A stretch of 64,000 nt of DNA from Halichondria panicea (taxonomy: Eukaryota; Porifera; Demospongiae; Suberitida; Halichondriidae), in the NCBI RefSeq assembly GCF_963675165.1, contig NC_087377.1, positions 4,293,042 through 4,357,041 of the forward strand, in the 5' to 3' direction. The position numbers and the translations under genes are program-made. The notes beneath the pieces are model-generated. The model was not told where the DNA came from. It saw only the letters and a program-made list of their open reading frames with translations, and searched no databases. Shown piece after piece: positions 3,203-22,206 of this stretch. Each line of letters opens with the position of its first letter. Positions within the stretch are counted from its first letter, which is position 1.

Positions 3203-3466
3203 CCGAATCACAATTTCAAAATCAATTAATCATCTGTACTTTGATACCTGTCTATAATAGCTAATAATTATTGTTTCCCGGGCCATTAATTATTCTAATC
3301 TATAGCTAACAAAATAGTGGTGGTGTACAGTGTCACTATTAAATATAGAATGCAACTTGACTATAACAAATTGGCATGCATGATAGAATTCATGATTACC
3401 ATGTTTGGTTATTTTGATAAGAGTCTACTGTAGTATTAGAAGTAATGCAAACTAATTGACAATAAT

Positions 3467-3982
3467 ATGGCTGCATTAATGGAGAGAGAGCAACTACTGA
3501 TCAAGCCAACAGGACACAGCACCACTGTCCCTAACTCCCCTATTGCTAAGCTGATGTACTACTTTCATTGTGTGTGCAGTTGTGTTGCTGATAGCGATGA
3601 CCCCTCTATTCAGCGATTGAGAGCATTCCAAACCAACTACAATTCGCTCTCCAGTGAAGAAGTATCGACACTTCTGACTTTATGCTTAGCTCTCAGCCCC
3701 GACAAGTTGATTAATAGTGTCTTCTTCTTGAATGAAGATATTAATGGAGCAAACAAGTTCTTTGAAGTGAGTGCAGTTTCTACGAAACTTCTTGTTTCAG
3801 AGTCTCTGCTTATTGGAGGGCAGAGGAAGAGAGTGCAAAAAATAATGATGTTCAAGAAAGAGTGGCTAGAGAGGAGCTATAATTATTCAGCCACTGAAGA
3901 GTTTTATACCGTCTACTTCGTGCTGTACCATTTTGTGACCAGATTAGATGTGCATGCCTATAAACACATAATTATAGTGTGA
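3467..3982 (+). CDS. CaaX-family copy 1, frameshifted tail (unrecognised family)
   Basis: First of seven copies of a single-exon family I do not recognise. It starts at ATG 3467 (MAALMEREQLLIKPTG) and follows the intact copies through the invariant LLIGGQRKRVQKIMMF block. A 4-base insertion (AATT, near 3882) then shifts the frame. The usual C-terminal CCTIL prenylation box is replaced by about 38 unrelated residues before a stop at 3982. It also lacks the AAGTGAAAGTG upstream word of other copies: the matching stretch between 3420 and 3460 is deleted. It may be a decaying copy or a diverged isoform. It lies 264 bases after the sulfotransferase stop. Confidence 0.55.
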   Translation: MAALMEREQLLIKPTGHSTTVPNSPIAKLMYYFHCVCSCVADSDDPSIQRLRAFQTNYNSLSSEEVSTLLTLCLALSPDKLINSVFFLNEDINGANKFFEVSAVSTKLLVSESLLIGGQRKRVQKIMMFKKEWLERSYNYSATEEFYTVYFVLYHFVTRLDVHAYKHIIIV

Positions 3983-3987
3983 TCATT

Positions 3988-4214
3988 AGGATGGTGAACA
4001 TCTGTCCACATTGTATAATTATACAATCGAAACTCAACATGACATTGTGTATTGTATATACTACTGCATGCATGATTGACGTACAGTACTCCCAAATTGA
4101 GCATTGTACAATATTGTACAATGTATAACAATTAAAACACACATGGCTTGCATGCATGCATGACTCATAAAACGTATAATTATACAATGCATGAACAGAT
4201 GTCTGCACCATCCT
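3988..4214. mobile_element. 227-bp MITE, GGTGAACATCTGTCC family
   Basis: Inverted ends: AGGATGGTGAACATCTGTCC at 3988 and, inverted, GAACAGATGTCTGCACCATCCT ending at 4214, each followed inward by ATTGTATAATTATA. A second copy at 18680-18905 lies at the matching place behind copy 5, so it was carried along with the gene unit. Related half-copies occur near 4215-4310, 18906-18965, 20620-20690, 22500-22530 and 25070-25140. Confidence 0.7.
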
Positions 4215-4349
4215 ATATTCACCATGCATGTTTAATATAGGGCCGGGTGCACATGTACATGCATATGCGTGGTGAACATCTGTCCATGCATTAATTGTAC
4301 AGTAAGAGTATAATGATTTCAACTGGTATATATAAGGAAGTGAATACAT

Positions 4350-5402
4350 TTAAGAACACACAAACAGGTATAGATGAATAAACAAATAATCTATGTTTAA
4401 CCATGCTGTATCAGTTTTACGCAGGATTTGTAGAGTTCTATAATTGTCTATAGGCCCTGATAAATTATGCTCGGAATAATAGCATAATAGGTGTCTAAAG
4501 AATAATTGGGAATAATAGGCATCAATGTCCATTTTTGGTAAAGATCATTACATTAAGTTTTGCATAACGATGTTTTCATGACAAAAATGCTAAAGTTGAA
4601 TATTATATGGATCAATTCAAGTCGGCAAGATAACACTGAGAATCTTGTTATTATATCGTGTGTCAGTTGTTGCTGTGTTTATGCATGTCTACGTCAAAAT
4701 TTTGTATAATTAATATGTCGCATTTTTTGGACTTTTTATGAGAATAATCGGATTTTTTATGAGGCACATTTTTTAAGAATTATATAGAATAATGGGTGAA
4801 AAAAACATTGTTCTACTCAGGGGGAAGAGTCGAGATGAAAGTCTGGCAGCCAGGTGACGTCCAAACGGTCAGTTATTCGTTCCACCAACTTGTCTAGTCC
4901 TGCTTGCACTGCTACTATACTACTGCTACTCTTCCTACTACTACTATACTGCTACTCTTCCTAGCTAGTCAAAGGTTTCTTTTTTTCTTTTTTTTTTTTT
5001 AACTACATATGCACAAAGAGACATCAAAGCTTACATCAAAGGACACAGATTTTTAGCCTACTTGACTGATAAGGCCGTTACCTAGACTACAGTTTGTTTG
5101 TCAGGGAGGAGCTCACATACAACTTCATCTAATTCATCATAACAATTCGTTACCGTTGTTGTAATTTCTACAACAGATTGCCAAGGAAAGAGTTAAACTA
5201 TACTCTCACAAGTGAAGATAACACGTGACCCTTTTCACTCTTGCAATTGCATGTTCGTGTTCACAGAAACATTCAAGTATGCCTGAAGCCCTGAACATGA
5301 TAACATTCACATCACTGCATGTGTCGTACATAATTATAGCGAATAATTATAACTCACACAGACTGACAAGCAAAATTAGTAACTATGTTGATTCCAATGC
5401 AG
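4350..5402. other. Non-coding stretch before the helicase remnant
   Basis: AT-rich DNA with a CTACTACTATACTGCTACTCTTCC-type short repeat near 4905-4965 and a pyrimidine run at 4980-5000. I looked here for the missing N-terminal helicase exons (Walker A motif) and found none. No supported gene. Confidence 0.5.
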
Positions 5403-6575
5403 GTGGCATTTTTTTCTTCCAAGGGATTGTCCTCGGCACTAGTTTCAGGAGAAAATGTGGACATTGAAGTTACAAGATGGTGTGTGCAGAGGTGCGTATC
5501 AGTTAATTTTCTTTACGCCAGAGATGATCATTGGAAACCGAAAGTGGAGAAAATTGCTGGAAGGCGATGTTTATGCTAATCGTTTGAAGGCCTTTGTGAT
5601 TGATGAGGCACATTGTGTGAAGAAATGGTAAGCCACATAACAAATGCACTTGTATATATTATACTCGTAATTATAATCTTAAGTAGGTAAATAATGATAT
5701 AATTATTGTTTTATAGGGGTGAGACTTTTAGGCCTGTCATGGATAGAATTGGTGAAGTGAGAAGCCTATTACCAATAGGTGTGAATGTAATGGCTGTTAC
5801 AGCGACAGCCACAAAAACCATTCGTTACTCTGTCAGCAAGACAATCGGGCTAAAGTCACCCTATGTAATCACAAGATCTCCTTCTAAAAAGAATCTCTTT
5901 TACTGTGTTGGAGTGTTTAATGGAGTTGAAGAAACGTTTCGTCCATTAGCTCGGAAGTTGAAAAATGTGCGTGTTGCCTTCCCAAAAACAATCATTTACG
6001 GTCAGTCGTTCAGTATGTGTGCAAATATATACATTTTTCTTCGGAGAGAGTTAGGCACCAATTTCACAGAGCCTGTTTATGCTCCTGATGTACCCTATTT
6101 CCGCATGGTAGACATGTTTACTAGCGTTACAGATGCTGGGCACAAAACAGAAATTATACAGTTATTTAAGAAAAAAAGCAGCCTGAGAATTGTTATTGCC
6201 ACAATTGCCTTTGGTATGGGGGTAGATTGCGCTGATGTGAGGCAAATAGTTCATGTTGGCCTGCCGGATGACAATAGTTCTTACATTCAAGAAACTGGTC
6301 GGGCTGGCAGAGATGGACATCTGTCATCAGTCACACTACTTCAAGCAACCACTCACCACCCTGTTGATACGGACATTAAAGAATATGCCTCAAACTGTGA
6401 TAAATGCCGACGCGATTTCCTATTCACAGATATGGATAATTACGTTCACAACGATATGGGTAGTAAGTGTGTTTGTTGTGACATTTGTGCCAAGCTATGC
6501 TTTTGTGGTAACTGTGAAACCAATATGATACATTTTACTAAGCTTACTAGATCTACTACTATTTATTTTGATTAA
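5403..6575 (+). pseudogene. RecQ-like DNA helicase remnant
   Basis: Two exons, 5403-5627 and 5717-6575, code for a RecQ-type superfamily 2 helicase, an ATP-driven 3'-5' DNA unwinding enzyme. Visible motifs are AYQLIFFTPEMIIGN, the DEAH box in AFVIDEAHCVKKW (split across the intron), motif III MAVTATAT, motif V IVIATIAFGMGVDCADVRQI, motif VI YIQETGRAGRDG, and a zinc-binding-like cysteine cluster ending CVCCDICAKLC. The phases join at 5627/5717. The first exon needs a single-base shift near 5478-5490: KGLSSALVSGENVDIEVTR is in one frame and AYQLIFFTPEM in another. No Walker A motif, RQC or HRDC domain is visible. It looks truncated and broken, unless the shift is an assembly error. Confidence 0.75.
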
Positions 6576-6661
6576 TTGCGCGTGCAATCGTACTTTTTTT
6601 ATAATGCTTGATGATTGGGAAAAGTCGTATTACGCTTTCTTTGAACTGTAAAAAAATCAAA

Positions 6662-7092
6662 CTAAAATTTATCAGGCAATTTGGTTAAAATCCAGGTCAT
6701 TAGTTCATCTTTAGTTTTGGAATGTAGCACATTCCTAACACGTGGGAACGTTAGGTGCTTTCGGTTATCTTCTACTATAAACCCACGAGACTTCACAAGT
6801 TCCTCGGCTCCAACTTCGATATCTGTTTGTGTATTAGGTTTTGCTTGTCTACTACTTGAATGTGTAATACTGTTATCTTCATCAAACTGATCAAGCAGTG
6901 GTGATATTGTGCCGATTGCCCTCCCAGTTCTTTGAATTGCCTTAGCTATTCTATTAACACCTTGAGCTCGTATGCATGTCTTGGCAATTTTATTTAGATG
7001 TTCCATATGTAAATCACCCGCAATATTCATCCCTGGCTTACCATTCATGTTTACGAACCGACTCCATATTAGCTGTGCTGAAAGTAATTTTT
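6662..7092 (-). pseudogene. DUF6589-like protein, C-terminal fragment
   Basis: Reading right to left, an open frame from the TATG microsatellite (about 7092) to the stop at 6662 encodes LLSAQLIWSRFVN, then NIAGDLHMEHLNKIAKTC and GRAIGTISPLLDQFDEDN. This resembles the conserved C-terminal part of DUF6589 proteins, a repetitive family in invertebrates and fungi often linked to mobile DNA (recalled, not searched). The 5' part is missing: the frame runs into the simple repeat at 7092. The gene faces the helicase remnant tail-to-tail, with 86 bases between the stops. Confidence 0.6.
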
Positions 7093-7136
7093 GTATGTAT
7101 GTATGTATGTATGTATGTATGTATGTATGTATGTAT
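7092..7136. repeat. (TATG)n microsatellite
   Basis: About eleven uninterrupted TATG units. It marks the 5' break of the DUF6589-like fragment. Confidence 0.9.
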
Positions 7137-7855
7137 TATATCAATGTTTCCAGTGAAGAAGTAGTGTTTATAGCTATAGAGTTTGCATGTTTCAGTTTAA
7201 CTGAGAGTGTGCAGTCAATAATAATATTATAATTAATAATTACAGAATATTCACAACCAGCAGTTAAGGCCCAAAAATATGAAAATTGCAGCCTTAACTC
7301 CTCGTTGAGATTGAATTTAATGCATCTATAGGTAGCTAACTAATAATTGAGATGTTTCCAAGTCTATAGATAATGTGATAATGTTACTATATGAGTACTA
7401 GTCAGATCAGTTCCACAACCAAAGCAGTATATGGAGATGGGGTGCGCCATTATTAACGTAGAACAGCACAATAATTAGTGGAGACAGAATCAGAACTGAA
7501 GCCATGTGGACTCTAATTAACACCTGAGCTCTGTGGTCAGGAGCGCGCCAATATTAACAATATTCATAGTTAGTACGCGGTGCAGCAGAACAAATGCTAG
7601 ATAGGGCTGAAACCCGTCCCCCCATTTTTATGGCCGGGGACGGGCACGCCCATCTAGTTTGGGACAGCCAGCACTGCCGGTAACTAGCTGGATCCATGGA
7701 ATAGCGAGTGGCCGTACTTCAGGGTGAGTTTTGTGCAGTAAACATATAGCTAGCATTCCGTGCCAAGCCAAATGGCCGGTATATCGAGGTGGCCGTACTT
7801 CAGGGAGCCGGAATAGCGAGAGTCTACTGTAATTATGTAAGAGCTGCTGGCTGCT
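7137..7855. other. Non-coding stretch with short repeats
   Basis: No supported gene. The words GTGGCCGTACTTCAGGG (7709 and 7790) and GGAATAGCGAGAG recur, suggesting a small element between about 7690 and 7835. The sequence GTAAGAGCTGCTGGCTGCTTGC at 7837 matches the far-upstream region of other CaaX-family copies, so it is probably the displaced upstream DNA of copy 2. Confidence 0.45.
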
Positions 7856-8925
7856 TGCATGGCATTAGCCTCGATCCCAGGCCGAGTTTTCGCTTTTACA
7901 ACGGTTAGGCGAACGGTTACTAGTTGTCTGCGCATGCGTCAAATTTTCATTGTATTTGTGGTCGGCAAAAATATTTATAATCGAAATTTGTACACAGAAA
8001 ATGCACAGAGTGAGTACACAAAAGATGCACACAGAGAGCTGCTTCACAAGGGCCTGGGGAGTTGCCAGTTGTGCTGCAGCACGATTACAGTGCCTCAGGG
8101 CAACTTCAGGATGATTGAATGCCTTCAAATTATGTTTCAAAAAGATTTAGCAGGCTGCTGGACTTCTCTGATTCTAGGCCCCAACTCGTAATTCTTGAGA
8201 AAACGTAGATTCTCTTGATGCCTCTGTCAGTCTGAGCTACCCAGCAACGCTCGAACGAGCAGGTCATACTCCAGTCCTGTAAGTATAGGACAATAATTAC
8301 AAAGACGGTTAAACCCTTACCTCAAACTGTCCAGTCTCGTCCGTTAGTATAGCCAAGCAGAGCACTGTTGGGATAGCTGGATATTAGCCATTGCTCCTGT
8401 ACAGAGAAATAGACATTCTTAATACGCGTAGATCTATATTAAATTTCTCGTATTAAAGTGTCATTGTCGACGAGCTGATGATGGCAGCACCAAGTTCTCT
8501 AGCTCACACTCTTCACTTGATCCACCATATTAATGATGAAACTATAGTCTACCTAGATCTTGCCAAACATGAACAAGATTTGATAGCACAGGGCCCACAC
8601 AAAAATATCTGACCTTAACAAGCTTGACAAAGCTTTATACCTCTCTATACCTCTTCCCTTGTTGTTCAGTCTTCAGAGTAATGTTTTCTAAGCTTCAGAG
8701 AAGAGAGAAGCTTTAGCTAAGAGCCATTCCAATAATGATAAAACGGAAACTAACTTCTAGTACACGATAGTACACGAATATAAATGTCACGAAAGTGAAC
8801 GAGAATATCCATTTGTCAGAATCTGACGCATGCGCAGACAACTAGTACCAAGCCTAGTTGTTTGCCTAACCGTTATAAGCGAAAACTCGGCCTGGGATCG
8901 AGGCTACTAGCATCATGGCATGCAG
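7856..8925. mobile_element. 1.07-kb inverted-repeat transposon upstream of copy 2
   Basis: Inverted ends of about 85-100 bases: TAGCCTCGATCCCAGGCCGA at 7867, with TTGTCTGCGCATGCGTCA further in, and their complements ending at about 8912. The outermost word is shared with the element at 59361-59960, so they belong to one family. The ORFs at 7859-8191 and its antisense are not convincing. The element lies about 75 bases before the copy 2 start and separates that gene from its older upstream sequence. Confidence 0.7.
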
Positions 8926-9001
8926 CACTCTATAAATTCTGTGTGGACCACACAGTGATTCAGAAAGTGATATATTATAGCTACTGTCTTGTAAATTGAC
9001 A

Positions 9002-9511
9002 ATGGCTGCATTTCTGGAGAGAGAGCAGGTGCAGATCAAGGCAACAGGAGGCAGCACCACAGTCCCTAACTCGCCTATTGCTAAGCTGATGTACTACTTT
9101 GAATGTGTGTGCAGTTGTGTTGCTGATAGTGATGACCCCTCTATTAAACGATTGAGAGCGTACAAAACCAACTACAATTCCCTCTCCAGTGCTGAAAAAT
9201 CTGCACTTCTGACTTTATGCTTGGCTCTCAGCCCTGACAAGTTGATGAATAGTGTCTTCTTTTTGAATGAAGATATCAATGGAGCAAATAAGTTCTTTGA
9301 AGTGAGTGCAGTTTCCACAAAACTTCTTGTTTCAGATTCTCTGCTTATTGGAGGACAGAGGAAGAGAGTGCGAAGTATTATGATGTTCAAGAAAGAGTGG
9401 ATAGAGAGGTACTATCTTCAACCATTGAAAAGTTTCGTGGAGTCCTCTCAAGGGTCCAACCGATTAAGACAGCCAGAACAAGATACTTCGAGCTGCTGTA
9501 CCATTTTGTGA
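9002..9511 (+). CDS. CaaX-family copy 2, intact (169 codons, unrecognised)
   Basis: Intact single-exon gene. The start is ATG 9002, the same MAA...EREQ start as in every sister copy; upstream in-frame TTG is not needed. Conserved blocks in order: EREQVQIKATG, SPIAKLMYYF, Cys-rich CVCSCVADSDDPSIKRLRAY (about residues 37-56), NYNSLSSAE, LTLCLALSPDKLMNSVFFLN, FFEVSAVSTKLLV, LLIGGQRKRVRSIMMFKKEW, then a tail NRLRQPEQDTSSCCTIL. The final C-T-I-L fits a CaaX box with X=Leu, the geranylgeranyltransferase-I type, with one extra Cys before it that could be palmitoylated. No signal peptide or membrane segment, so probably a cytosolic protein anchored by lipid. Function unknown. Its upstream AAGTGAAAGTG word is split by a small insertion (8955-8975). 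Confidence 0.8.
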   Translation: MAAFLEREQVQIKATGGSTTVPNSPIAKLMYYFECVCSCVADSDDPSIKRLRAYKTNYNSLSSAEKSALLTLCLALSPDKLMNSVFFLNEDINGANKFFEVSAVSTKLLVSDSLLIGGQRKRVRSIMMFKKEWIERYYLQPLKSFVESSQGSNRLRQPEQDTSSCCTIL

Positions 9512-10490
9512 CCTATAGATGTGCCTATAATTTTATACAAACATAACCGATAACAGCCAGAACAAGATACTTTAATTTGCTGCATGCTGTATCATTTTTG
9601 ACATAGATGTACCTAAACACATATAGCTATAACGCTTATATTAACTACTGTCACAGTGTAAAACTTTCTGAGTGTCTTATAATTGTAGCATGCTTCTCAC
9701 AGGACGTGATGATTTTCTTTATATCTGTTGGTGTGTGCTTCACAGAAATTTATGACAACTGAAAAATGGTATAATTTATATAATCATTGCTGCTATAAGA
9801 CTAAGTGTCATCTTCAGTTTGTTCTATCTGCTCCTTGATCTATAGTCATATACGTCAGGATTTAATTAATGAATATGTGTGATACAATGCTAACTCATGA
9901 ACAAATCCTATAGGTAAAAAACAATTAACATACATGCATGCTCATGTGAATGCACTGTAAATATGATGTAAATACATAATACGTATCAACATTTATAATA
10001 TAGAGTGTAAGAAAATGTTGATACTGCATATTAAGTGCGTCGACATTTACTATAGAGTAGTATACAAGTAAATGGATACGCATTACGTAAATAATTATTT
10101 GGCTACGGAAGGTGGCCATCTCATACGTGATCAGAGACGTTGAGGAGAAGATAAACCGATCGGGGGTGAACAAGCTCTGCTTTGACCACACCCACCAGCA
10201 CCTACGTTACAATAGTATTTCTGTCAGAATAAAATGTTATGCGTTTGCAGGCACATGCGCATGCATCATTGTAAGAATGGTAGTCCGTACACGATTTCTT
10301 TCTGGTTCCCTTTCGGTTTAGCTCTGAGTGCCTGGTTCTGGTGTGGATTGCTGGCTTGCTCAGCCTGCTGTACAGATGAGAAGGCTTGCCTTGCCTTGTT
10401 GGCTGCATGACTCAGTAAAACGGTTGGCTGGCTCTATATTGCATGCTGGTGTATTGACCAGGGCGGTATATATATATAGTCACCCATAAA
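9512..10490. other. Non-coding stretch between copies 2 and 3
   Basis: AT-rich DNA without a supported gene. The first 100 bases repeat the 3' flank of copies 4 and 6 (GTGCCTATAA, TATACAAACA). The rest shows only short TGCATGCA words. Confidence 0.5.
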
Positions 10491-10556
10491 TTCTGTGTGG
10501 ACCACAAAGTGAATTAAAATTAAAGTGATAGATATTAACTGCCTTGTAAATTGAAA

Positions 10557-10920
10557 ATGGCTGCATTTCTGGCAACAGGAGGCAGCACCACAGTCCCCTG
10601 TTGCTAAAGCCTAAGCTGATGTACTACTCTGACTGTGTGTGCATGCAGTTGTGTTGCTGATAGCAATGAGCCCTCTATTAAGCGATTGAAAGCGTATGTG
10701 CATGCAAGACCAACTATATACACTTCCCTCCCCAGTGGCGAAAAATCTGACTTTATACGCTTGCATGGCTCTCAGTCCTGACAAGTTGATTAACAGTGTC
10801 TTTTTTTTCTTCTTGAATGTGATGGGTTCTTTGAAGTGAGTGCAATTTCTACAAAACTTCTTGTTTCAGTGTTTCTGCTTATTGCAGGGCAGAGAAAGAG
10901 AGTGCAAAAATTATAATGGT
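10557..10920 (+). pseudogene. CaaX-family copy 3, decayed
   Basis: Starts ATGGCTGCATTTCTGG as in copy 2, then has lost EREQ and several internal stretches. Short insertions such as TGCATG (10640, 10690) and a run of T (10801) break the frame. Recognisable remnants include GCTGATGTACTACT, CTCAGTCCTGACAAGTTGAT, TTTGAAGTGAGTGCA and GCAGAGAAAGAGAGTGC. The upstream TTCTGTGTGGACCACAAAGTG is present, but the AAAGTG pair is pushed apart by about 10 bases. The tail and CaaX box are gone. Confidence 0.85.
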
Positions 10921-10929
10921 AAAAAAAGA

Positions 10930-11110
10930 AGACCATGCCGGTATTTATAAATGTCCATGAGTATTTATAAACTTGAATTAATGTCCATTAGGTATATGCA
11001 AATACTCATGGACATTTCAAGTATAAATACCCATGGACATTAAACACCCGCATGGGCATTTATAAATACTAATGGACATACATAAAATACCCATGGACAC
11101 AATTCTAATA
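10930..11110. repeat. Direct and inverted repeats of ATACCCATGGACATT
   Basis: At least six copies of a 12-15 base word (AATGTCCATGAGTATTTA and its complement AAATACYCATGGACATT) in about 180 bases, in both orientations. Not coding. It directly follows the decayed copy 3. Confidence 0.7.
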
Positions 11111-12172
11111 AATATAATTATACCCACTAACATTTTTAAATACCTGCATATTATTATACCCTTGTACCATGATGTGCTCTGACACTATAAGGAATATCAA
11201 TTCACTCCAGGGTACAAATCCCATGTACCCTTCTAGGATGTACATGGTTAATTAAATGTGGTCAGCCTAAGGACCCTCTCTTTTAAACAACACTTATTCT
11301 ATACCTTACAACAATTGTGGAAAGCACAAAAATGGTGAAGATCAATTCTTCAGTATCCAATCAGATTATAAATGGGTTGGATAACAGCTTCTAATCAATA
11401 GATGTTCATAGTTACAAGCACTATACCTGTACCATGGTATGGACATCTGTGTGTGTATTGTTTGTAACTAACCTCGTGCGCCCTCGGGAATACATACAAC
11501 TGCCCTCGGTATAGATTCAATACACCCTTAATATCATCCATGGTACAACTATATTACATGTACAACAATTGAAACACATGACTCATAACGTACAATGTAT
11601 GGACAGATATATGTCCATATATCCTGCACTCTACTGTTGTAGTAACTATGAGTTTTCATCTTGTAGGGTACCAAGGGCGTATATAGTAAAGATATACGCC
11701 CGGATTGCATTTATCCCTGTGTTTAGGTCAAGATTATAATTATATACACTCTCAACTTATCTTAAATATAATTAGCCAACAAATAGTGAAGGTGCATGGC
11801 AGGATAAAACCATGAACAGTGCACGGGGGGGGGGGGGGCGGGGAAAGCTTCCCAAACACTTCAGCTTCCCCCCAAACAGTATTAATAGCTCACCCCTAAC
11901 AAATTGCTTTGCTATTAATTACTGTATACTTTTGTCACTCCATACTTACATTACTAACTATAATAATTCATCCCCCCACCCCCCCCAAAACATTTAGATA
12001 GAACCTTGTCAGCATTGTATTTAGCTATTATGGCTTGGGGTTTTGGATCTATAAAGGGCAACTGGACTATAATAATACATGACATCATTGTTACCAACTT
12101 TGGTAAATCTATATATAAAATGATAATGTCATAATAATATTAAGAGCTGCTATAGCTGCTTGCTCTATCAAA
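11111..12172. other. Non-coding stretch between copies 3 and 4
   Basis: No supported gene. Contains a run of about 14 G (11825-11840), a C-rich run (11971-11989) and half a MITE (ACAATGTATGGACAGAT, near 11595). Confidence 0.5.
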
Positions 12173-12189
12173 ATTCTGTGTGGACCACA

Positions 12190-12201
12190 AAGTGAAAGTG
12201 A
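12190..12201 (+). promoter_or_regulatory. AAGTGAAAGTGA box upstream of copy 4
   Basis: AAGTGAAAGTGA ends 20 bases before the ATG of copy 4, within the conserved upstream block TTCTGTGTGGACCACAAAG. The word matches the published recognition sequence shared by interferon-regulatory factors and PRDM1/Blimp-1 (GTGAAAGT core). Binding is inferred. Confidence 0.45.
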
Positions 12202-12221
12202 TACTATTTTGCAAATTGACA

Positions 12222-12718
12222 ATGGCTGCCATATTAGAGAGAGCAGCTACTGATCAAGCCAACAGGATACGACACAACTATCCCTAACTCCCCTGTTGCT
12301 AAGCTGATGTACTACTTTCATTGTGTGTGCTGTTGTGTTGCTGATAGCGATGACCCCTCTATTCAGCGATTGAGAGCATACAAAACCAACTACACTTCCC
12401 TCTCCAGTGCCAAAAAATCTGCACTTCTGACTTTATGCTTGGCTCTCAGCCCTGACAAATTGATTAATAGTGTCTTCTTCTTGAATGAAGATATTAATGG
12501 AGTAAACAAGTTCTTTGAAGTGAGTGCAGTTTCTACGAAACTTCTTGTTTCAGAGTCTCTGCTTATTGGAGGACAGAGGAAAAGAGTACCAAAAATTATG
12601 ATGTTCAAAAAAGAGTGGATAGAGAGGTAATTGAAGAGTTTTGTGGAGTCCTCTCAAGGGTCCAACCGATTATTAAGACAGCCAGATACTTCGTGGTGCT
12701 GCTGTACCATTTTGTGAT
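12222..12718 (+). pseudogene. CaaX-family copy 4, frameshifted
   Basis: ATG 12222 opens as in sister genes, but two bases are missing in the EREQ codons (about 12238), shifting the frame. From MYYFHCVCCCVADSDD (12307) to FKKEWIER the correct frame is intact, then a deletion creates an early stop at 12628-12630. The lost tail, including a codon run for Cys-Cys-Cys-Thr-Ile-Leu, is still readable in another frame up to about 12716. A shortened 107-residue product starting at Met 12307 is possible but would lack the lipid anchor. Confidence 0.75.
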
Positions 12719-14639
12719 TTATAATTATAGATGTGCCTATAAATTATTATACAAACACAACGCTTATAACTGTATAGTGTGCAATTTTACAGTAGTCATT
12801 AATGGATTAATTTTAACGTGTGTGCTGATTGCATGTGTGATTATAATTATAATCGCATGTTGTCCTATTATTCACTGTGATTCGTACAGTGATTAATTGC
12901 GTATCAGTAATTGCACGTCGTTAAGGCAGTAATTGCACGTCATCATTAACGACGTGCAGAATGTCCTTGAAACTGCATCACAAACGATTAACAATCAATA
13001 GTATGGCTATGTGCGCTTGCTAATGCCTCTCGCCATGTTTTGCTTTCGCTCAAAAGTATTAGAGCGTTATAGAAGAGGTAAATAATTTGCAATGTGCTTT
13101 GATTGTTTCACAAGAAAGGGGTGTCCACAGTTAATAGTGCATACTGATCGTCTTAAATGGCCTGTAGCCAAACAGTGGGAGCAAACCTTTGTCAGCAGTA
13201 GTCTGTGAGATAAGATAGACAGAATTCAATCACAGAAAGTAGTGTCTATAAAAATTAAGAAAAGGTTGGTTTGTGGCTTACCAGGGCCTCAACAAAGAAA
13301 AAAATTGATGCTGCCAAGATCTGGGGTTCAAAATGGATTCTCTTACAAATGTAATATTGAGCGCGCATGCGCATTACATCCAGGAATAAGGGGTGTGTGC
13401 AAGTTCAGGAGTGAAGCTAAATACAGGAATATTCCAATGATGTAATTGCCTGCAAACCATAAATAACATTTAAACCCAGTCTCCATACTCACTCTGGTGG
13501 AAAATTAGGTGGGAATTAGCTGTAAGACAAGGTATAGTATTGTATATGTGCTCTCACTGAAGCTTTATAGTACTGGTGCAGTTCGTTCTGTGTTGTACCA
13601 AGGGCATATATGCCCCTTGGTTGTATTTAATAAAACACAAGTATAGTCTATCTATGTATATCTACAATTGCAAGGAATCTTCGTCATCGGTATTGACTAC
13701 ATTGAGCGCTATAGATCTAGTGTATGCTATCAGCAACATCAGGAGTGTATGAAGAGGAGTATCCAACTGTAGCAGTTGTAGTGTAAACCAGGTTCCGATA
13801 TGAGTATGTCATATACCATGTCACTATCAGACCTCATCTAAGTGGGTAGGTGTAATGGTTAATTAGTTAAAATGATATCAGCATACACACGCATGGTCTG
13901 CTGTGGTTTGTACCTCCAGCCCACATTTAATGGCTAACAGTTTACACAACTACAAGTGTTAGTAACATAAATTGTCAGTTTGATCTCTAAAAACTCCATT
14001 CCATTCAATACCAGATGTCATCCACCGCCGTTCTTCAGAAACTTGTCACACACTGAGTGGCTATAGGTATCCACTATGGCATGACTGGACAAGAGCCAGG
14101 AGAATCAGAGCTTCATGAGCTTCATGAGCTTGATTAGGCTGGAGTGGAGGCTAGAGCTTGATGATCATGCACGGGGAAGCCATCTTTGAGTAATAAAATT
14201 GAAAGGTCAAAGTTTGGAATGTTCCCACTTTATTATTATGCCTCGGTGCGCATGTGCAAGCAAGGTATACGGTAGTGTGTTTGTGTGTCTGTGTCTGTGT
14301 GTGTCTGTGTGTCTGTGTACGTACGTGTGTGTGTAGACTGCTACAGCTGCTCAAGGGGATGAATTAAGAGTTTCTATAGTAGGGTTTCCACACAAAAATC
14401 TGATCTCTACAAAATGGTGTTTTGAGTGATTGTGCATACAAAGCAACTAAAATAAAGCACGCAGCCAAAAATTCGCATTGAAATACCTTTTCTTTCTTGC
14501 ACAATAGCACCCGTTAACTCTCACCACAACTATGCGCTTGCATGCAATATTTCCACTCTAAAGAAAGCACACTTCAAAGTTAAATTTCAAAACTTTTGTT
14601 GAAGCATAGATAAAGGAATATTGTGCTGCAATTCTACAC
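12719..14639. other. Long non-coding stretch
   Basis: No supported gene on either strand. ORFs at 13242-13445 and 14151-14354 have no recognisable protein features, and the latter reads through a TG/CA repeat (about 14270-14335). The piece ATTATGCCTCGGTGCGCATG (14233) is an end of the dispersed TGCCTCGGTGC element seen at 28672 and 60220. Confidence 0.55.
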
Positions 14640-15497
14640 TTCAAGGTACAGGGTTTTGCAGAATTCTTGCAACAGGGCTAAACAGACACAGCAATGACTT
14701 CCATATATGGAAGTCAAGTCAACTGCTGACTTAAAATATTGCGTGTACTATGCAGGGTGTCATACTGCTCATACAGAGGAGGGATATGATTATATCCCTC
14801 CTCTGGCTCCAATCCCCCCCCTAAAATGTGCATTTAAGTACTGAGTTGTATTTGAGTGTCCATAGCGGTAGGGTATCGAAATAACTGTTGACCTTTTTTT
14901 TTATGTTCTGGTGATGTTTCAAATGGTAATGTTTGAAAGTCCCCTCTCTAATTGCAATTGTATGACACTCTGGTATGTGTATAATTATTTGAATGGCTTG
15001 AATTGAAAGTTGTCCTGTGAGCCTAAAAGAGAGCATCACAAGATCAGGAGGATATCCTGACAAGATTTAAGGTGGTGCATGGACGGTGTACCAGGTGGAA
15101 ATGTCGTAAAGTTGATGACAAGACAATTTGCTTCAACTGTGTGCAGAACTGTTGCTCTTTTCAATGACACCCTGATAAGCATTTCCATGGTGCACCACCC
15201 ACCACCTTAATTAAATCTTGTGAATAAGCTGATGCTCTCTTAAGGCTCCAGGACATCTTTCAATTCAAAATACAGATACCTGCACATGTACAATAATAAA
15301 AGTAATAATAAAATTAATAGTAAAAGTCAGCAGTTGACTTCCATATATGGAAGTCATTGCTGTGTCTGCTTAGCCCTGTTACAAGAACTCTGCAAAACCC
15401 TGTACCCAAAATATTATAGTCAGCAGTTGACTTCCATATATGGAAGTCTTTGCAGTGTCTGTTTAGCCCTGTTGCAAGGATTTTGCAAAACCCTGTA
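14640..15497. mobile_element. 0.86-kb foldback (palindromic) element
   Basis: GTACAGGGTTTTGCAGAATTC, CAACAGGGCTAAACAGACAC and ACTTCCATATATGGAAGTC at 14643-14720 reappear inverted at 15325-15400 and again at 15420-15496. Inner arms also pair: GAGAGCATCACAAGAT (15025) against ATCTTGTGAATAAGCTGATG (15217), and AAGGTGGTGCATGG against CCATGGTGCACCACC. The unit therefore folds on itself. The right end carries a tandem second copy of the terminal segment. No transposase is seen. Confidence 0.65.
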
Positions 15498-16221
15498 AGT
15501 AGTTTAGAGCAGAATTGAACAATTGTATTTAGTTGTCAAAGCCTGATGTATTTTTACAACTATACAACCAAAAATTGAAAATGTTGTTTTGATACGTTCT
15601 AGAGTTGACTGCATGCAGGTATTGACCTTAGTACATCAGTAAAATAGCCAATTCAATAGGTAAAATATCTCTTTCCAGGTCAATCGCACACAATCTGGAA
15701 GGAACTTTAGTTTGCATCTGAGCCCAACCCACCAAATTAGCTTGATTTTATCACCGCCCCCAATGAAGTGGCTATGGCTTAGTAGAAATGGGAGTGGGTC
15801 AATGGCTGTGCACAAACTAACCATCGATTTTTATGCCTTGCTGCTGCCTCGATGGAAGTATGTGTGGCCTTTATAAAAGCTGCACTCTGGTCAACTAAGC
15901 TGCTTAGCGCATGTAGACTGTTGTTGCTTGTGTCCACTTGTGAAGTGCCTGTGTACACAAATTAATGGCTTGCTGCTTCCTCTTTGAAAATATTCTATGG
16001 CTACGTCCAGAAGGTCTACCAATGGATACTACTCAGTCCTACATGCTGTATAGCTGGTTTTAAACCTTTTTTTTTTTTTAAGTGTCCTAATTGGAGCAGA
16101 ACTTCAAAGGATAATCGCATTTATGATACTATCCAATCTACCACAGAATCCAATATCATCCAACATTCACAAGTTGATAGCACGCTCCCTCCCAGCTTGT
16201 TATTGTAAGACCAATAAAGGG
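15498..16221. other. Non-coding stretch with a dispersed repeat
   Basis: No supported gene. Positions about 16080-16221 match 40680-40835 (AAGTGTCCTA, CTACCACAGAATCCAATATC, TTGATAGCACGCTCCCTCCC). That match is important as the empty-site reference for the adjacent transposon. Confidence 0.5.
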
Positions 16222-17412
16222 CAGAGGAGGTTGGACACAAATCATCATGACGCCTTCAGTCATGTGATAATTATAAACCTTTATAGAATTCCTTTGAGGG
16301 TCAAAGGTGAGAATGTAAAAGCTTATCAGAAGCAGGGATAAAGTAAGTGCAAGTAAGAGCTTGGAGAACGCTAAAGAGAAACAGATTAATGGTGCCCTGA
16401 CCTCCTCTGCTCATATAGATCATAATCCTGTTAAACAAAAATTGGAAAAGTGTCAAAAAAATCTAAATACTAGTCTAGATCCATCTTAGTCTCCACTAGC
16501 CCCGGTTAAAATTGGGTCTGGAGAACTTCCTATCAACGAGTTGTGTAAGGCCTTACGTGGCTAATAGTAAATAGTGGTCACAAATAATATTATTCATAGT
16601 TGATGACCACAGTGTGATTACAATAATGTGAAAACCACAGTTCTGCCATAGTTGAGAAACTCTAGAGTCCTGCATGCTCAGTGCTCAAATCGAAATAGAT
16701 CTACCATGCAGGTGTAGGAGAGAAGCTATAGCAACTACTAGAGTCACTAGAAAGATCTAGACTGAGCTGAAACCAGGCAGTTATGTTTTAAGGTTCTCAT
16801 GGATTCAGTTTTCAGAGCAAAAGATGCAAATCAAGTCTCATTAATATTTGCAGTGCTGCCACTTGAATATAGATTGCTGATTTCAGGTATAGATCTAGAT
16901 GTATTATAGTAGGAGACATCCTTGAAGCTACAACTCAGCTCTTGCTTCTGTGCAACTACCCATGGAACTTCTCTCTCTTTCTGTGATCTTTTCTGGGATA
17001 GTCTTACAGCATAAATAAACCATTATTGTCAGTTGCATCTAGCTGGAAACTGTAGCAAGTTGGGCAACAAGAAGGCTGCTTTGCATAACTTCTTTTCCTT
17101 CTTTTTGCCTCCATTGACCGCAGTGGTTAACACGCCGAGAAATCTGTACATAGGAAGTTCACCAGACCCATGTTATCGACCTAGCGTTCAAATAGAAAAC
17201 ATCCGGGGATGGCTGCGCGAGACTAGATCCATCTTGGAATCTTTTCAGCAGTGTAGGGAAGGTGAGAGGGCGGTGGGAATGCTCCTAGACCACTTCTGGC
17301 TACTTGCAGTGTCTCCGCACAGCTTACAAAACAGTGGAGCATAATCGGCCATTTTAATTAGAGCGCACGTGATAAAACCTGACGGTGGATGACGGGTGTC
17401 CAACCTCCTCTG
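16222..17412. mobile_element. 1191-bp transposon with 17-bp TIRs and 9-bp target duplication
   Basis: It begins CAGAGGAGGTTGGACAC (16222-16238) and ends with the exact complement GTGTCCAACCTCCTCTG (17396-17412). Both sides carry AATAAAGGG (16213-16221 and 17413-17421), a 9-base target-site duplication. The repeat copy at 40680-40835 reads CCAGTAAAGGGATAAATAC without the insert and so preserves the empty site. No transposase is recognisable; the 103-codon ORF at 17033-17344 has no known features. The ends and duplication fit a hAT- or Mutator-like non-autonomous element. Confidence 0.85.
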
Positions 17413-17692
17413 AATAAAGGGATATGACTGTAAATGACTGTAGATTGCTAAAAATCAATTTGAGCAAAAGGGGGGTTCCTTTGCTCCGGCCCTTGGATCT
17501 CCCCCTGGATCCGCCACTGACAAGTTAGAATGCACTAGAGTAAGTAACCAATTTTCGCCAGACATCTATAATCGGCGGCTATATTGCAGGTTTGTATACA
17601 GCGGTTTACTATAATTAATCGTTGTATTACACCGGCTCAAAGAATGCTGATGTGTTGAGTGTACTATTATGTGTGGCATTCTCGTTACCTAG

Positions 17693-17831
17693 GAAACACA
17701 AAGATGATCAGTTTGACCACTTCACAGAGGATCAGAAATCTCTCGTCAGGAACGCTATAAGCAAGTCTATTGACTACCTCAAGGAAAATAACCATGGAAA
17801 TACTTTAGGTATTGAAGACTATCTGAACTAA
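17693..17831 (+). pseudogene. Orphan copy of the last sulfotransferase exon
   Basis: A 139-base exon, with its acceptor AG and stop TAA, nearly identical to 3064-3202 (KHKDDQFDHFTEDQKSLVRN...GIEDYLN; one Arg-to-Lys change). The downstream 250 bases also match those after 3202. None of the four preceding sulfotransferase exons is found upstream, so it cannot make the enzyme unless spliced to a distant gene. Confidence 0.75.
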
Positions 17832-18093
17832 CCGAATCACAATTTCAAAATCAATTAATCATCTGTACTTTGATACCTGTCTATAATAGCTAATAATTAT
17901 TGTTTCCCGGGCCATTAATTATTCTAATCTATAGCTAACAAAATAGTGGTGGTGTACGGTGTCACTATTAAATATAGAATGCAATTTGACTATAACAAAA
18001 TTAATTGGCATGCATGCATGATAGAATTCATGATTACCATGTTTGGTTATCTGATAAGAGAGTTGCTGGCTGCTTGCTATCTGTCTGAACAAC

Positions 18094-18105
18094 AAGTGAA
18101 AGTGG
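18094..18105 (+). promoter_or_regulatory. AAGTGAAAGTGG box upstream of copy 5
   Basis: AAGTGAAAGTGG ends 23 bases before ATG 18129, in the context CTGTCTGAACAACAAGTG. It fits the IRF/PRDM1 consensus. The matching stretch in copy 1 is deleted. Function inferred. Confidence 0.45.
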
Positions 18106-18128
18106 TACTGTCTGCAAACTAATTGACA

Positions 18129-18596
18129 ATGGCTGCAATAATGGAGAGAGAGCAGCTACTGATCAAGCCAACAGGGAACACAGTGATTGTCCCTGACTCT
18201 CCTGTTGCTAAGCTGATGTACTACTTTCATTGTGTGTGCAGTTGTGTTGCTGATAGTGATGACCCTTCTATTAAACGATTGAGAGCATTCCAAACCAACT
18301 ACAATTCCCTCTCCAGTGAAGAAGTATCGACACTTTTGGTTTTATGCTTGGCTCTCAGCCCTGACAAGTTGATTAATAGTGTCTTCTTCTTGAATAAAGA
18401 TATCAATGGAAGAAATGAGTTTTTTGAAGTCAGTGCAGTTTCCACAAAACTTCTTGTTTCAGAGTCTCTGCTTATTGGAGGGCAGAGGAAGAGAGTGCAA
18501 AAAATTATGATGTTCAAGAAAGAGTGGTTAGAGAGGAACTATATTCAGCCACTAAAGAGTTTTGTGCCGTCTACTTCGTGCTGTACCATTTTGTGA
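18129..18596 (+). CDS. CaaX-family copy 5, intact (155 codons, unrecognised)
   Basis: Intact single-exon gene, ATG 18129 (MAAIMEREQLLIKPTG). It shares all family blocks: KLMYYFHCVCSCVADSDD, SLSSEEVSTLLVLCLALSPD, NSVFFLNKDINGRNEFFEVS, LLIGGQRKRVQKIMMFKKEW and ERNYIQPLKSF, ending PSTSCCTIL with the CaaX box C-T-I-L. It is shorter than copy 2 because it lacks the GSNRLRQPEQD insert before the box. Closest in sequence and flanks to copy 1, including the orphan sulfotransferase exon before it and the MITE after it, which shows a block duplication. Lipid anchoring by geranylgeranylation is inferred. Confidence 0.8.
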   Translation: MAAIMEREQLLIKPTGNTVIVPDSPVAKLMYYFHCVCSCVADSDDPSIKRLRAFQTNYNSLSSEEVSTLLVLCLALSPDKLINSVFFLNKDINGRNEFFEVSAVSTKLLVSESLLIGGQRKRVQKIMMFKKEWLERNYIQPLKSFVPSTSCCTIL

Positions 18597-19634
18597 CCAG
18601 ATTAGATGTGCATGCCTATATACTAACACATGCATAATTATATAATAGTATAGTTATAGTGTGATCATTACACATTATTAGGATGCATGGTGAACATCTG
18701 TCCACATTGTATAATTATACAATAAGATAGTCTTATGTGTAAATCGAAACTCAACATGACATGATTGTGTACATATACTGCATGCATTGTACAAAAATTA
18801 TTGCACAACTATTAATAATGTACAACAATTGAAACACTTGCATGCATGCATGACTCATATAAATTAATAATTAACGTACAATGCATGAACAGATGTCACC
18901 ATCCTATATTCACCATGTTCAATATAGGGTGCACCTAGCTGTGGTGAACATCTGTCCATACATTGTACAGTAAGAGTAATGATTTAAACTGCATGCATTG
19001 TATATAAGGAAATGAATACATTTAAGGAACACACAAACAGGTATATAGATGAATAAACATGTTAGCTCCCTAACAAATTGCATTGCTATAACTGTTTTTT
19101 GCTGCATGTATATGGGCCCCATGCATATACTTAATTCATATCCCCCCAAACAGTAGATTGAACCTTGTCACTATAATTATAATGGTGGCCTGGAGCATTG
19201 TGTCTACTATAATTATGACAATTAACATACAGCAACATAAACTATATAGGAACCATGTTTGGTGCTATAATAGTTGGGTGCAAAGATTTTGTGCATCTAT
19301 AGATCTAGAGAATAATTATGATGGAAGTGTACTTTGCTGGGCTGCTTGCATATACAATAAGTTATAACTATTCATGCATCATGCATGCATGTAAATCTTT
19401 ACATGTAATTGCATGTTTTCCAAGTTTAAGAAATTTGTTCATGGGTTAGCATTGTAGATATAATATGCCACACAATCAGCACACACGTTAAATCCATTAA
19501 TACCTAGATCTACTAGCTATAATTAATAAGACACATCATAAAAATTAATGTTACACTGTAGTTATAAGCGTTATTATAATATAAAATATATAATAAATAT
19601 ATAATAGTATTAGGCACATCTAATAATTATATGG
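18597..19634. other. Non-coding stretch with duplicated MITE
   Basis: Holds the second copy of the GGTGAACATCTGTCC MITE (18680-18905) and its half-copy to about 18965, then AT-rich DNA. No supported gene. Confidence 0.55.
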
Positions 19635-19637
19635 TCA

Positions 19638-20159
19638 CAAAATGGTACAGCAGCACCACGAAGTATCTTGTTCTGGCTGTCTTAATCGGTTGGACCCTTG
19701 AGAGGACTCCACGAAACTCTTCAATGGCTGAAGGTAGTACCTCTCTATCCACTCTATCTTGAACTTCATTATTTTTTGCACTCTCTTCCTCTGCCCTCCA
19801 ATAAGCAGAGACTCTGAAACAAGAAGTTTCGTAGAAACTGTGCTCACTTCAAAGAACTTGTTTACTCCATTGATATCTTCATTCAAGAAGAAGACACTAT
19901 TAATCAACTTGTCAGGGCTGAGAGCCAAGCATATAAAGTCAGAAGTGCAGATTCTTCGGCATGCACTGGAGAGGAAAGTGTAGTTGGTCTTGTACGCTCT
20001 CAATCGCTGAATAGAGGGGTCTCATCGCTATCAGCAACACAACAGCACACACAATGAAAGTAGTACATCAGCTTAGCAACAGGGGAGTTAGGGATAGTCA
20101 CTGTTTGTCCTGCATGTTGGCTTGATCTGTAGCTGCTCTCTCTCCAGAAATGCAGCCAT
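19638..20159 (-). pseudogene. CaaX-family copy 6, inverted and frameshifted
   Basis: The only copy on the minus strand. ATG is at 20159-20157 and the first 40 codons match copy 2. Extra bases near 20023 (GATGAGACCCC instead of GATGACCCC) and two AT insertions near 19935-19965 break the frame. From SPDKLINSVFFLNEDINGVN to the end the frame is open, and the tail QPEQDTSWCCCTIL keeps the CaaX box with three cysteines. The upstream box TCACTTTCACTT (20181-20192) is intact. Confidence 0.8.
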
Positions 20160-20180
20160 TGTTTAATTTACAAGACAGTA

Positions 20181-20192
20181 TCACTTTCACTT
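20181..20192 (-). promoter_or_regulatory. AAGTGAAAGTGA box upstream of copy 6
   Basis: Read on the minus strand: AAGTGAAAGTGA, 21 bases before the ATG, within TTCTGTGTGGACCACAAAG exactly as at copy 4. IRF/PRDM1-like by sequence only. Confidence 0.4.
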
Positions 20193-20688
20193 TGTGGTCC
20201 ACACAGAATTTATACAGTGCATGCATGCATGCAAGTAGCCAGCAGCTAGCTCTTATATATCACATAATTATTTATATCCTTTCTAAATTCTTGGTAACAA
20301 TGAATTTTATCATGCATGCATGCCAATGTTAATGTATATAGTCCACCTACAGTTGATTTTTAGACCCAATATAATTATACCCACTATATACGTATAACAG
20401 TGATACCACCTTGCAAATGTTACAACAAAACGACGTTTTGTTTTTGACGAACAACAGAAATACTACATATATAAAATGGAACGTAGCCAAATAATAATAA
20501 TGATGTATCAACATTTACTAATAATATTATACTATACTAGAGTTATAAACGTTATATGTGTTTGCATGCAGGCACATCATTGAAATACTTGACTCTTAAT
20601 TAAATATACATATATATACACATATACAATGGACAGATGTTCATGATCACCATTCCATATTCAACATCCTATAGGATATGGTGAACAT

Positions 20689-21031
20689 TAGTCTTGAATA
20701 CCAGCCGGTTCTCATTGTAAGCGTGGGCGGGAGAGAACCGTCTGGTGACTCTGGGCATACTTTTCTGTCGTCGGACAGAATGTGGGTAGAGTATATTCAT
20801 TGGAGCCTTACCTGCAAAAGAGTATATTCATTGGAGCATTACCCACAAGAATGTAAGATAGCTTCGAGAATGCAACCGCTCTATACAACACTTCTATTTA
20901 AATTGTGGATTATTATCCACGTGGTTAACAGGATGATTACATTCCTGACTGACAGAGCGTTCTGCCCACAGTCACCAGACAGTTCTCTCCTGCCCACGCT
21001 TACAATGAGAACCGGCTGGTATTCGAGACTA
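20689..21031. mobile_element. 343-bp MITE with 9-bp target duplication, nested in another MITE
   Basis: Ends TAGTCTTGAATACCAGCCGG (20689) and its near-perfect complement to 21031; the terminal inverted repeats run about 60 bases. Flanked on both sides by GGTGAACAT (20680-20688 and 21032-21040), which is the end word of the 227-bp MITE family, so this element jumped into an older MITE. The ORF 20678-21082 reads across it and is not a gene. Confidence 0.85.
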
Positions 21032-21329
21032 GGTGAACATCTGTACATTAAAAGTCATGTATTTCAACTGCATAATTATTAATAGTACTAAGTGAATACA
21101 ATAATTAAGCAACACATGCACAAACAACTGAGTAGATGAATACAGAAAAGCAATTTTCACATTCTGTTATAGAGGAGTGAGTGGTATATACCTATTTTCC
21201 CCAAAATGCTAAGCATTCAATGGCAGCCATGCAGGGCCTACGTGGTGCATGGGCTAATGAATTATTATTGATATGCATGCATGTGCGTTGAGGGCGGATA
21301 CAATCATGTTTGTATAATTATGTGTATTA

Positions 21330-21450
21330 TTATTCTGGTTACCCAAGAAACACAAATTTATATTATCAAGAAATTTCCTGTTAGGAACGCTATATATAAT
21401 TATACACAAATCCGTCGACTACCTCATGCAGGGAGAGTAACCATGCATGG
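21330..21450 (+). pseudogene. Decayed third copy of the last sulfotransferase exon
   Basis: GGTTACCCAAGAAACACAAA, GTTAGGAACGCTATA and GTCGACTACCTC echo the terminal sulfotransferase exon in order, but the middle is lost and the frame is broken. It lies just upstream of CaaX-family copy 7, repeating the order seen at copies 1 and 5. Confidence 0.65.
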
Positions 21451-21684
21451 AAAATCACTTTTCATTGTTATTCTTGTTCTTATTTAGCCAACGAAAAGGT
21501 GGTAGTGTCACAGTGACTATAATTATTATATGGTTGCCTGGGGTATTATTATTAGGGTACAAAATGCATATCATTGGCATGAGATCGAATTCATTGTTTA
21601 CCATGTTTGGTAATCTATAGATAACCATGCATGTGATAAGACATTTTGTGTAGCTGCTGCTTCCATTATTCTGTCTGGACAACA

Positions 21685-21696
21685 AAGTGAAAGTGA
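21685..21696 (+). promoter_or_regulatory. AAGTGAAAGTGA box upstream of copy 7
   Basis: AAGTGAAAGTGA in CTGTCTGGACAACAAAGTG, 30 bases before ATG 21727. IRF/PRDM1-like by sequence only. Confidence 0.45.
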
Positions 21697-21726
21697 TAGA
21701 ATTATTATAATTATAGTGTCTGAAGA

Positions 21727-22206
21727 ATGGCTGCAATAATGGAGAGAGAGCAGCTACAGATCAAGCCAACAGGATGCAACACAACTATCCCTGACTCCCC
21801 TATTGCTAAGCTGATGTACTATTTTGATTGTGTGTGCTGTTGTGTTGCTGATAGCAATGACCCTTCTATTAAGCGATTGAGAGCGTACAAGACCAACTAC
21901 AATTCGCTCTCCAGTGCAGAAGTATCTGCACTTTTGACTTTATGCTTGGCTCTCAGCCCTGACAAGTTGATTAATAGTGTCTTCTTCTTGAATGAAGATA
22001 TTACTAGAGGAAACAAGTTTTTTGAAGTCAGCGCAGTTTCTACGAAACTTCTTGTTTCAGAGTCGCTGCTTATTGGAGGGCAGAGGAAGAGAGTGCAAAA
22101 AATTATGATGTTCAAGAAAGAGTGGTTAGAGAGGAACTATATTCAGCCACTGAAGAGTTTCGTGCAGTCCTCTCAACAAAATACTTCATGCTGTACCATT
22201 TTGTGA
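21727..22206 (+). CDS. CaaX-family copy 7, intact (159 codons, unrecognised)
   Basis: Intact single-exon gene from ATG 21727 (MAAIMEREQLQIKPTG). It has the family blocks KLMYYFDCVCCCVADSND, SLSSAEVSALLTLCLALSPD, NSVFFLNEDITRGNKFFEVS, LLIGGQRKRVQKIMMFKKEW and ERNYIQPLKSFVQSSQQ, ending NTSCCTIL with the CaaX box. Most changes against copies 2 and 5 lie in the first 60 residues and just before the box, while the GGQRKRVQKIMMFKKEW block is nearly fixed, which suggests selection on the protein. No membrane segment or signal peptide. Confidence 0.8.
   Translation: MAAIMEREQLQIKPTGCNTTIPDSPIAKLMYYFDCVCCCVADSNDPSIKRLRAYKTNYNSLSSAEVSALLTLCLALSPDKLINSVFFLNEDITRGNKFFEVSAVSTKLLVSESLLIGGQRKRVQKIMMFKKEWLERNYIQPLKSFVQSSQQNTSCCTIL

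Follow-up and report, generated by a model that had tools for sequence, protein, structure and literature searches.

What does a gene do that is found seven times within 19 kb and has no name in the libraries searched? The window analysed here, a stretch of 64,000 nucleotides from Halichondria panicea (contig NC_087377.1, positions 4,293,042 to 4,357,041), carries seven copies of one single-exon gene between its positions 3467 and 22206. The locus raises the questions of whether these copies form a living family and of where in the cell their products would act. The intact copies are a real family under purifying selection, and the array is best read as a young tandem array under birth and death. 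Its products are probably cytosolic proteins of 17–19 kDa which, judging from their sequence, would use a geranylgeranyl group as membrane tether, together with a second signal specific to each branch of this birth-and-death family.

Copies of the gene and selection on the intact ones

Three copies, all on the plus strand, are intact: copy 2 (9002–9511, 169 amino acids, aa), copy 5 (18129–18596, 155 aa) and copy 7 (21727–22206, 159 aa). Each of the three ends in SCCTIL (CaaX codons at 9497–9508, 18582–18593 and 22192–22203), in agreement with the Cys-Cys-Thr-Ile-Leu-stop that an initial annotation of the stretch had given for them. Copy 1 (3467–3982, plus strand) has a 171-aa frame with the domain intact and a 4-base insertion that shifts its C-terminal tail; CTIL is absent from the protein, and a CCTIL remnant lies in another frame at about 3885–3938. 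The last three copies are broken. Copy 3 (10557–10931, plus strand) is a fragment of ~375 bases without the 3′ end and shows six stops (2 TGA, 4 TAA) in the aligned stretch. In copy 4 (12222–12717, plus strand) the first codons have a 2-base loss and one or two stops stand near the end, with CCCTIL readable behind. Copy 6 (19635–20159, minus strand; 19638 below) is inverted, carries 4- and 2-base insertions and has five stops in its first third, and is then open to CCCTIL. Genome searches and alignment confirm these seven copies at the positions and in the states first described. The alignment also shows that the insertions in the broken copies 19635–20159 and 10557–10931 are 4-base ones of the CATG/GCAT/TGCA type plus 2-base ones.

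The six other copies are 76–91% identical to 18129 in DNA, far beyond chance. Compared with the whole genome (131 Mb in 39 contigs; copy counts are lower bounds), the 21727 protein finds ten matches, i.e. the seven copies, two of them listed twice, and an eighth, distant copy. The latter is intact, encodes 168 aa, lies on the minus strand of the same contig 2.2 Mb off (G000:C1:6531667-6532170) and is 56–57% identical to 21727. A DNA search of the genome adds a stray 101-base fragment of the gene on contig C7. Five proteins were aligned: the three intact copies, the distant copy, and 3467 cut before its shifted tail. They have 73 invariant positions, including LCLALSPDKL, SAVST, GGQRK and IMMFKK, which with FFE are the conserved motifs of the domain. 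The core that had been called conserved is not fully invariant: 9002 has GGQRKRVRSIMMFKKEW there, and the distant copy has GGQRKKVQKIMMFKKVW. In the Cys-rich block that had been called fixed, C35 and C39 (21727 numbering) are present in all five proteins but the remaining Cys are not.

Copies 1 and 5 have in common a larger duplicated segment of ~1.4 kb, flank included on both sides (3032–4384 and 17660–19059, both plus strand, 82% identical). The common unit of copies 2, 4 and 6 measures ~595–640 bases; it starts 65–100 bases before the ATG and ends 26–36 past the stop. The 3467/18129 pair is recovered in both coding-region trees (support 90 and 95), other supports being 47–84 with little else agreed. 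The copies are clustered, some of them intact under selection and others broken, and the birth-and-death evolution proposed at first fits this composition (three intact, one tail-shifted and three broken among the seven). The word “expanding” then applied to the family stands less firmly: seven local copies are its sole basis, but in four of the seven the product is lost or changed.

For the intact copies the dN/dS ratio (omega), a check set beforehand, falls below 1. Codon models of the three intact pairs all put omega under 1, at 0.25 (p 7.6e-6), 0.46 (p 0.02) and 0.54 (p 0.048). Toward the distant copy pairwise codon models give 0.012–0.015, which is only rough because dS is saturated, and omega=1 is rejected with a likelihood ratio (LR) of 82–101. 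A single ratio on the seven-copy tree is 0.45 (p 2.8e-7 against 1). By branch class, omega is 0.24 for the tips of 21727, 18129, 9002 and 3467 jointly, 0.60 for the broken tips and 0.70 for the inner branches. When the three intact tips are taken together, with all seven copies, without 10557, or without 10557 on another tree, omega is 0.23, 0.31 and 0.28 (p 8e-6, 2.7e-5 and 8.7e-6); neutrality is thus rejected in three distinct settings. The tip of the tail-shifted 3467 is also constrained (omega 0.20, p 0.017).

By sequence this family has no named relative in the libraries searched, while the kind to which it would belong, CaaX-ended and under birth and death, is already known. Searches turned up no relative in Pfam, where the best E of any family member is 0.15, in PHROGs or NCBIfam with two proteins (best E 0.072 and 0.13), or in PDB by single-sequence and profile searches (best E 1.5). 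The three intact copies have no Ras-type Pfam match at E up to 1, nor do 3467 and the distant copy at E up to 10. Phages gave zero matches, and plasmids no relative, with one match at E 0.5. Scans that start from two short peptide patterns picked up 74 stretches in viral contigs and 155 in prokaryotes (84,980 species, each represented by one genome), 0 of them confirmed; remote relatives may escape such a two-pattern prefilter. Rfam gave 0 matches on the window. Literature text searches left the five core peptides unmatched, and nothing on the family stood among the CaaX, expansion and Porifera matches listed. We recognised no enzyme motif in the domain and saw, by eye, no signal peptide.

The C-terminal CaaX end

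C-a-a-L stands at the extreme C terminus of the three intact window copies and of the distant copy; in the window copies a1 is Thr, which is not aliphatic. The same end is still present in the DNA of three of the four other copies, in the other frame in 3467 and as CCCTIL in 12222 and 19638, the fourth being without that part. The distant copy ends in NDCIIL: a1 changes from Thr to Ile, and the other three residues of the box, Cys, Ile and Leu, stay the same. Its last codons differ from those of the tandem copies by silent changes at Cys and Leu and by a different stop codon, and C-x-I-L is still kept. The expectation that C-T-I-L is kept in relatives is therefore borne out in part: C-x-I-L is kept in one diverged relative, but as CIIL, and in a paralogue of the same genome rather than in an orthologue. 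The predicted prenylation signal is conserved in the family. Because the distant sister gene keeps the tail, the family is real and probably located at membranes.

The enzyme expected to read such an end is geranylgeranyltransferase I (GGTase-I). The genome encodes an exon of its beta subunit (E 9.4e-38 to PDB 8rdx_B; the beta subunits of farnesyltransferase and of the Rab-type enzyme score no better than 5.4e-9). According to PMC11152559, the human GGTase-I produced in yeast gives a complete shift of CIIL as well as of CTIL, and farnesyltransferase also accepts some CaaL sequences. PMC11304957 gives a2 and X as the main determinants for yeast GGTase-I, and names CIIL and CTIL canonical; both fall in the de-enriched part of its screen. 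Geranylgeranylation is described as directed by X = Leu, RhoB being mixed (PMC9141697). That the CaaX-Leu end is a substrate of GGTase-I, as had been put forward, is supported by the C-x-I-L of the distant copy and by the beta exon; prenylation itself is predicted. Directly before the CaaX Cys the three intact copies all have a second Cys; the distant copy has Asp there, and 5 Arg/Lys in the 20 residues preceding the CaaX box. The second membrane signal of Ras is reported to be either a Cys that carries palmitate or a run of basic residues (PMC4696201), and each branch here may accordingly rely on a different one of the two.

The protein, probably soluble and cytosolic, would receive from GGTase-I a geranylgeranyl group on the Cys four residues from its end. 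The usual removal of -aaX and methylation would follow, and the anchored protein would reside at the Golgi or the plasma membrane, facing the cytosol. By analogy with the two Ras types, the second signal would be palmitate on the neighbouring Cys in the tandem copies and the Arg-rich tail in the distant copy. Copy 3467, which has lost the CaaX end and conserved the domain, may be an unanchored version, and our guess is that the conserved domain engages a partner protein at the membrane. At this predicted level the proposal of a membrane-tethered cytosolic family gains support from selection, from C-x-I-L in the paralogue and from the GGTase-I beta exon. Since the anchor is predicted to be the work of a definite enzyme, the location is directly testable.

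Several points weigh against a selected and membrane-tethered family. Toward the distant copy, the broken copies and 3467 look equally constrained (LR 47–93), so that this comparison cannot separate live from dead copies. The broken pair 12222/19638 has an omega of 0.385 (p 0.02); with omega below 1 in some broken pairs and the broken copies constrained toward the distant one, part of the constraint is older than the breaks. The difference between intact and broken tips is not significant (two-ratio vs one-ratio p 0.11, or 0.30 with 3467 as broken), and each intact tip alone is below 1 with p values (0.0016–0.045) that are uncorrected for the number of tests. As for the tail, the CTIL common to the tandem copies proves little because their ancestry is recent, the test of CaaX conservation is one paralogue comparison only, and the second membrane signal is not conserved between the branches. 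The last point concerns hydropathy, for which the customary cut-off for a membrane span is 1.6. The 19-residue peak lies at 1.31–1.66 across the intact three and at 1.93 for the distant copy; 18129 (1.66) and the distant copy exceed the cut-off, with the stretch at residues 68–87. We judge this stretch to be more probably buried core than a membrane span because Asp and Lys stand in its middle.

Alternative explanations and neighbouring features

The alternative that survives best, unlikely as we consider it, is a functional family whose C-terminal Cys is unprenylated, C-x-I-L being kept for the fold, for a disulphide or for a partner that binds the tail. A hydrophobic C-terminal tail can have other binding roles, and the evidence consists of four residues and one deep comparison. 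Nevertheless, the residues kept (C, a2 and X) are those mainly read by GGTase-I, both tetrapeptides are described as substrates of the human enzyme in yeast (PMC11152559), and the GGTase-I beta exon is in the genome. Geranylgeranylation thus stays our preferred reading of the tail.

It is quite unlikely, on present evidence, that the copies are immune effectors driven by an interferon regulatory factor (IRF) and lipid-anchored like OAS1 p46 or GBP5. The candidate element, AAAGTGAAAGTGATA, which is IRF-element-like, lies at 12189–12203 (plus strand, its start 33 bases upstream of the copy 4 ATG), at 20179–20193 (minus strand, before copy 6) and at 21684–21698 (plus strand, before copy 7, the sole intact copy with the exact sequence). 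The 13-mer AAAGTGAAAGTGA precedes three of the seven copies, its distance from start to ATG being 33 bases in 12222, 34 in 19638 and 43 in 21727. With two mismatches it is found upstream of 18129 and 10557, and not even so upstream of 3467 and of 9002, where by eye it is interrupted. A background of 63.5 kb holds it 0 times at up to one mismatch and twice at two. A separate site resembling the interferon-stimulated response element, AGTTTCNNTTTC at one mismatch (one background match), precedes the distant copy; the same form precedes 12222 and 19638. IRF domains, which like other genes judged by eye point to an animal genome, occur at two loci, one of them confirmed against PDB, and the CaaX box is identical to that of OAS1 p46. 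In another sponge, Amphimedon queenslandica, IRF is reported to enter the nuclei of cells that engulfed native bacteria (PMC13372038).

The IRF element as given in PMC3214047 is GAAANNGAAA; AAAGTGAAAGTGA resembles it, yet the exact GAAANNGAAA is absent from all eight upstream regions, and its one-mismatch form is common by chance (87 matches in 63.5 kb). Among the three intact window copies one has the exact 13-mer and none has AGTTTCNNTTTC at one mismatch. The three genome sites listed for the exact 15-mer AAAGTGAAAGTGATA are all in this cluster, two of them before broken copies, and at up to one mismatch the genome holds 198 sites versus 167 for the reversed control. Moreover the motif was picked after looking at the sequence, and Pfam gives no relation to a GBP or OAS domain. 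We regard the IRF-like promoter element as a weak lead only. It would be a long shot to see in these genes IRF-controlled, tandemly duplicating, small geranylgeranylated effectors with a domain not described so far, perhaps in an animal of an early branch, and an interferon-free counterpart of OAS1 p46 and GBP5. If the promoter lead were true it would offer a handle on IRF targets in animals without interferon.

That the gene is cargo of a mobile element, or a gene captured by one or by a virus that seeds the copies, is very improbable. This would suit the single exon, the short duplicated unit of copies 2, 4 and 6, the inverted and dispersed copies, and the fragments nearby: an open frame at 5739–6575 (plus strand, between copies 1 and 2) matches Helicase_C (E 7.9e-12; RecQ kind by eye), and a fragment adjoining it at 6662–7048 (minus strand) matches DUF6589 (E 7.5e-7). 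But the gene occurs in at least nine places in 131 Mb, seven of which are in one 19-kb stretch, and the 1.4 kb common to copies 1 and 5 includes flank on both sides. At the unit ends no poly-A, terminal repeats or common 3′ end were seen by eye, and no relative came up in viral contigs (two-pattern scan), phages or plasmids. The least probable explanation is a relict array in which every copy is decaying and none functions today: the product is lost or altered in four of seven copies and intact and broken tips are not significantly different, but purifying selection acted on the intact tips after duplication and constraint toward the distant intact copy is deep.

Other features were observed in and around the window. 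An inverted repeat of 69 bases (94% alike; 20689–20757 and 20963–21031) spans ~340 bases between copies 6 and 7 and is like a small non-autonomous transposon. The sequence GCATGCATGCA has 15 matches in the window (both strands, several at the same site), e.g. at 4149, 18008, 18839, 20218 and 35815, versus 0.13 expected from shuffles. A weak SDA1-domain match (E 2.6e-5, just below the Pfam cut-off) lies at 51811–52290 on the minus strand, and an IgGFc_binding domain (E 2.4e-21; L030:7293-8549, minus strand) ~7 kb past the window end. Near the distant copy, L027:626-2878 holds Rieske-domain frames, with KshA_C just below the cut-off and, by eye, a likeness to the sterol desaturase DAF-36/Neverland. 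L071:1501-1692 is a piece of mitochondrial COX1 in the nuclear genome; it has TGA codons in place of Trp and looks like the type found in non-bilaterians. Another tandem cluster, at G000:C8:493345-521186, has seven PF00112 cysteine-protease matches in a row over 28 kb (frames of 422–502 aa); the 2 of 77 PF00112 matches that were examined for silicatein, a sponge marker, are both cathepsin-like and have the active-site Cys.

Comparison with known prenylated proteins

The GGTase-I substrates Rho/Rac and the G-gamma subunits resemble this family in their C-terminal CaaX-type end behind a variable linker; yeast Rsr1 ends in CTIL and Rho2 in CIIL, as listed in PMC11304957. They differ from it in that the family has no Ras/GTPase or GGL domain match in Pfam, and 21727 no match in PDB. 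With Ras the likeness would lie in the second signal of the tail, which we compare to the Cys of the tandem copies and to the Arg-rich tail of the distant copy; Ras has a GTPase domain, to which the family shows no match.

Closer to the tail itself are two sets of larger proteins. OAS1 is a nucleotidyltransferase. OAS1 p46 ends in CTIL and is reported to be geranylgeranylated and on endomembranes, with augmented antiviral activity; CTIL directly behind the part common to OAS1 proteins is described as insufficient for Golgi location (PMC8357416). Its CaaX box is identical to that of the tandem copies, and no sequence relation was found. GBP2 (CNIL) and GBP5 (CVLL) are reported as prenylated in vivo, GBP5 being confirmed as geranylgeranylated, and the distribution of GBP2 under the microscope as unchanged by removal of CNIL (PMC2998424). 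Like the present family the GBPs have a CaaX-Leu end and form a gene family; unlike it they are large dynamin-like GTPases, and no sequence relation was found. A large GTPase or nucleotidyltransferase domain of the GBP or OAS1 type has no Pfam match in the family, the best E in PDB being 1.5. By analogy, OAS1 p46 and the GBPs, neither of them relatives by sequence, illustrate what a tail of this kind can do.

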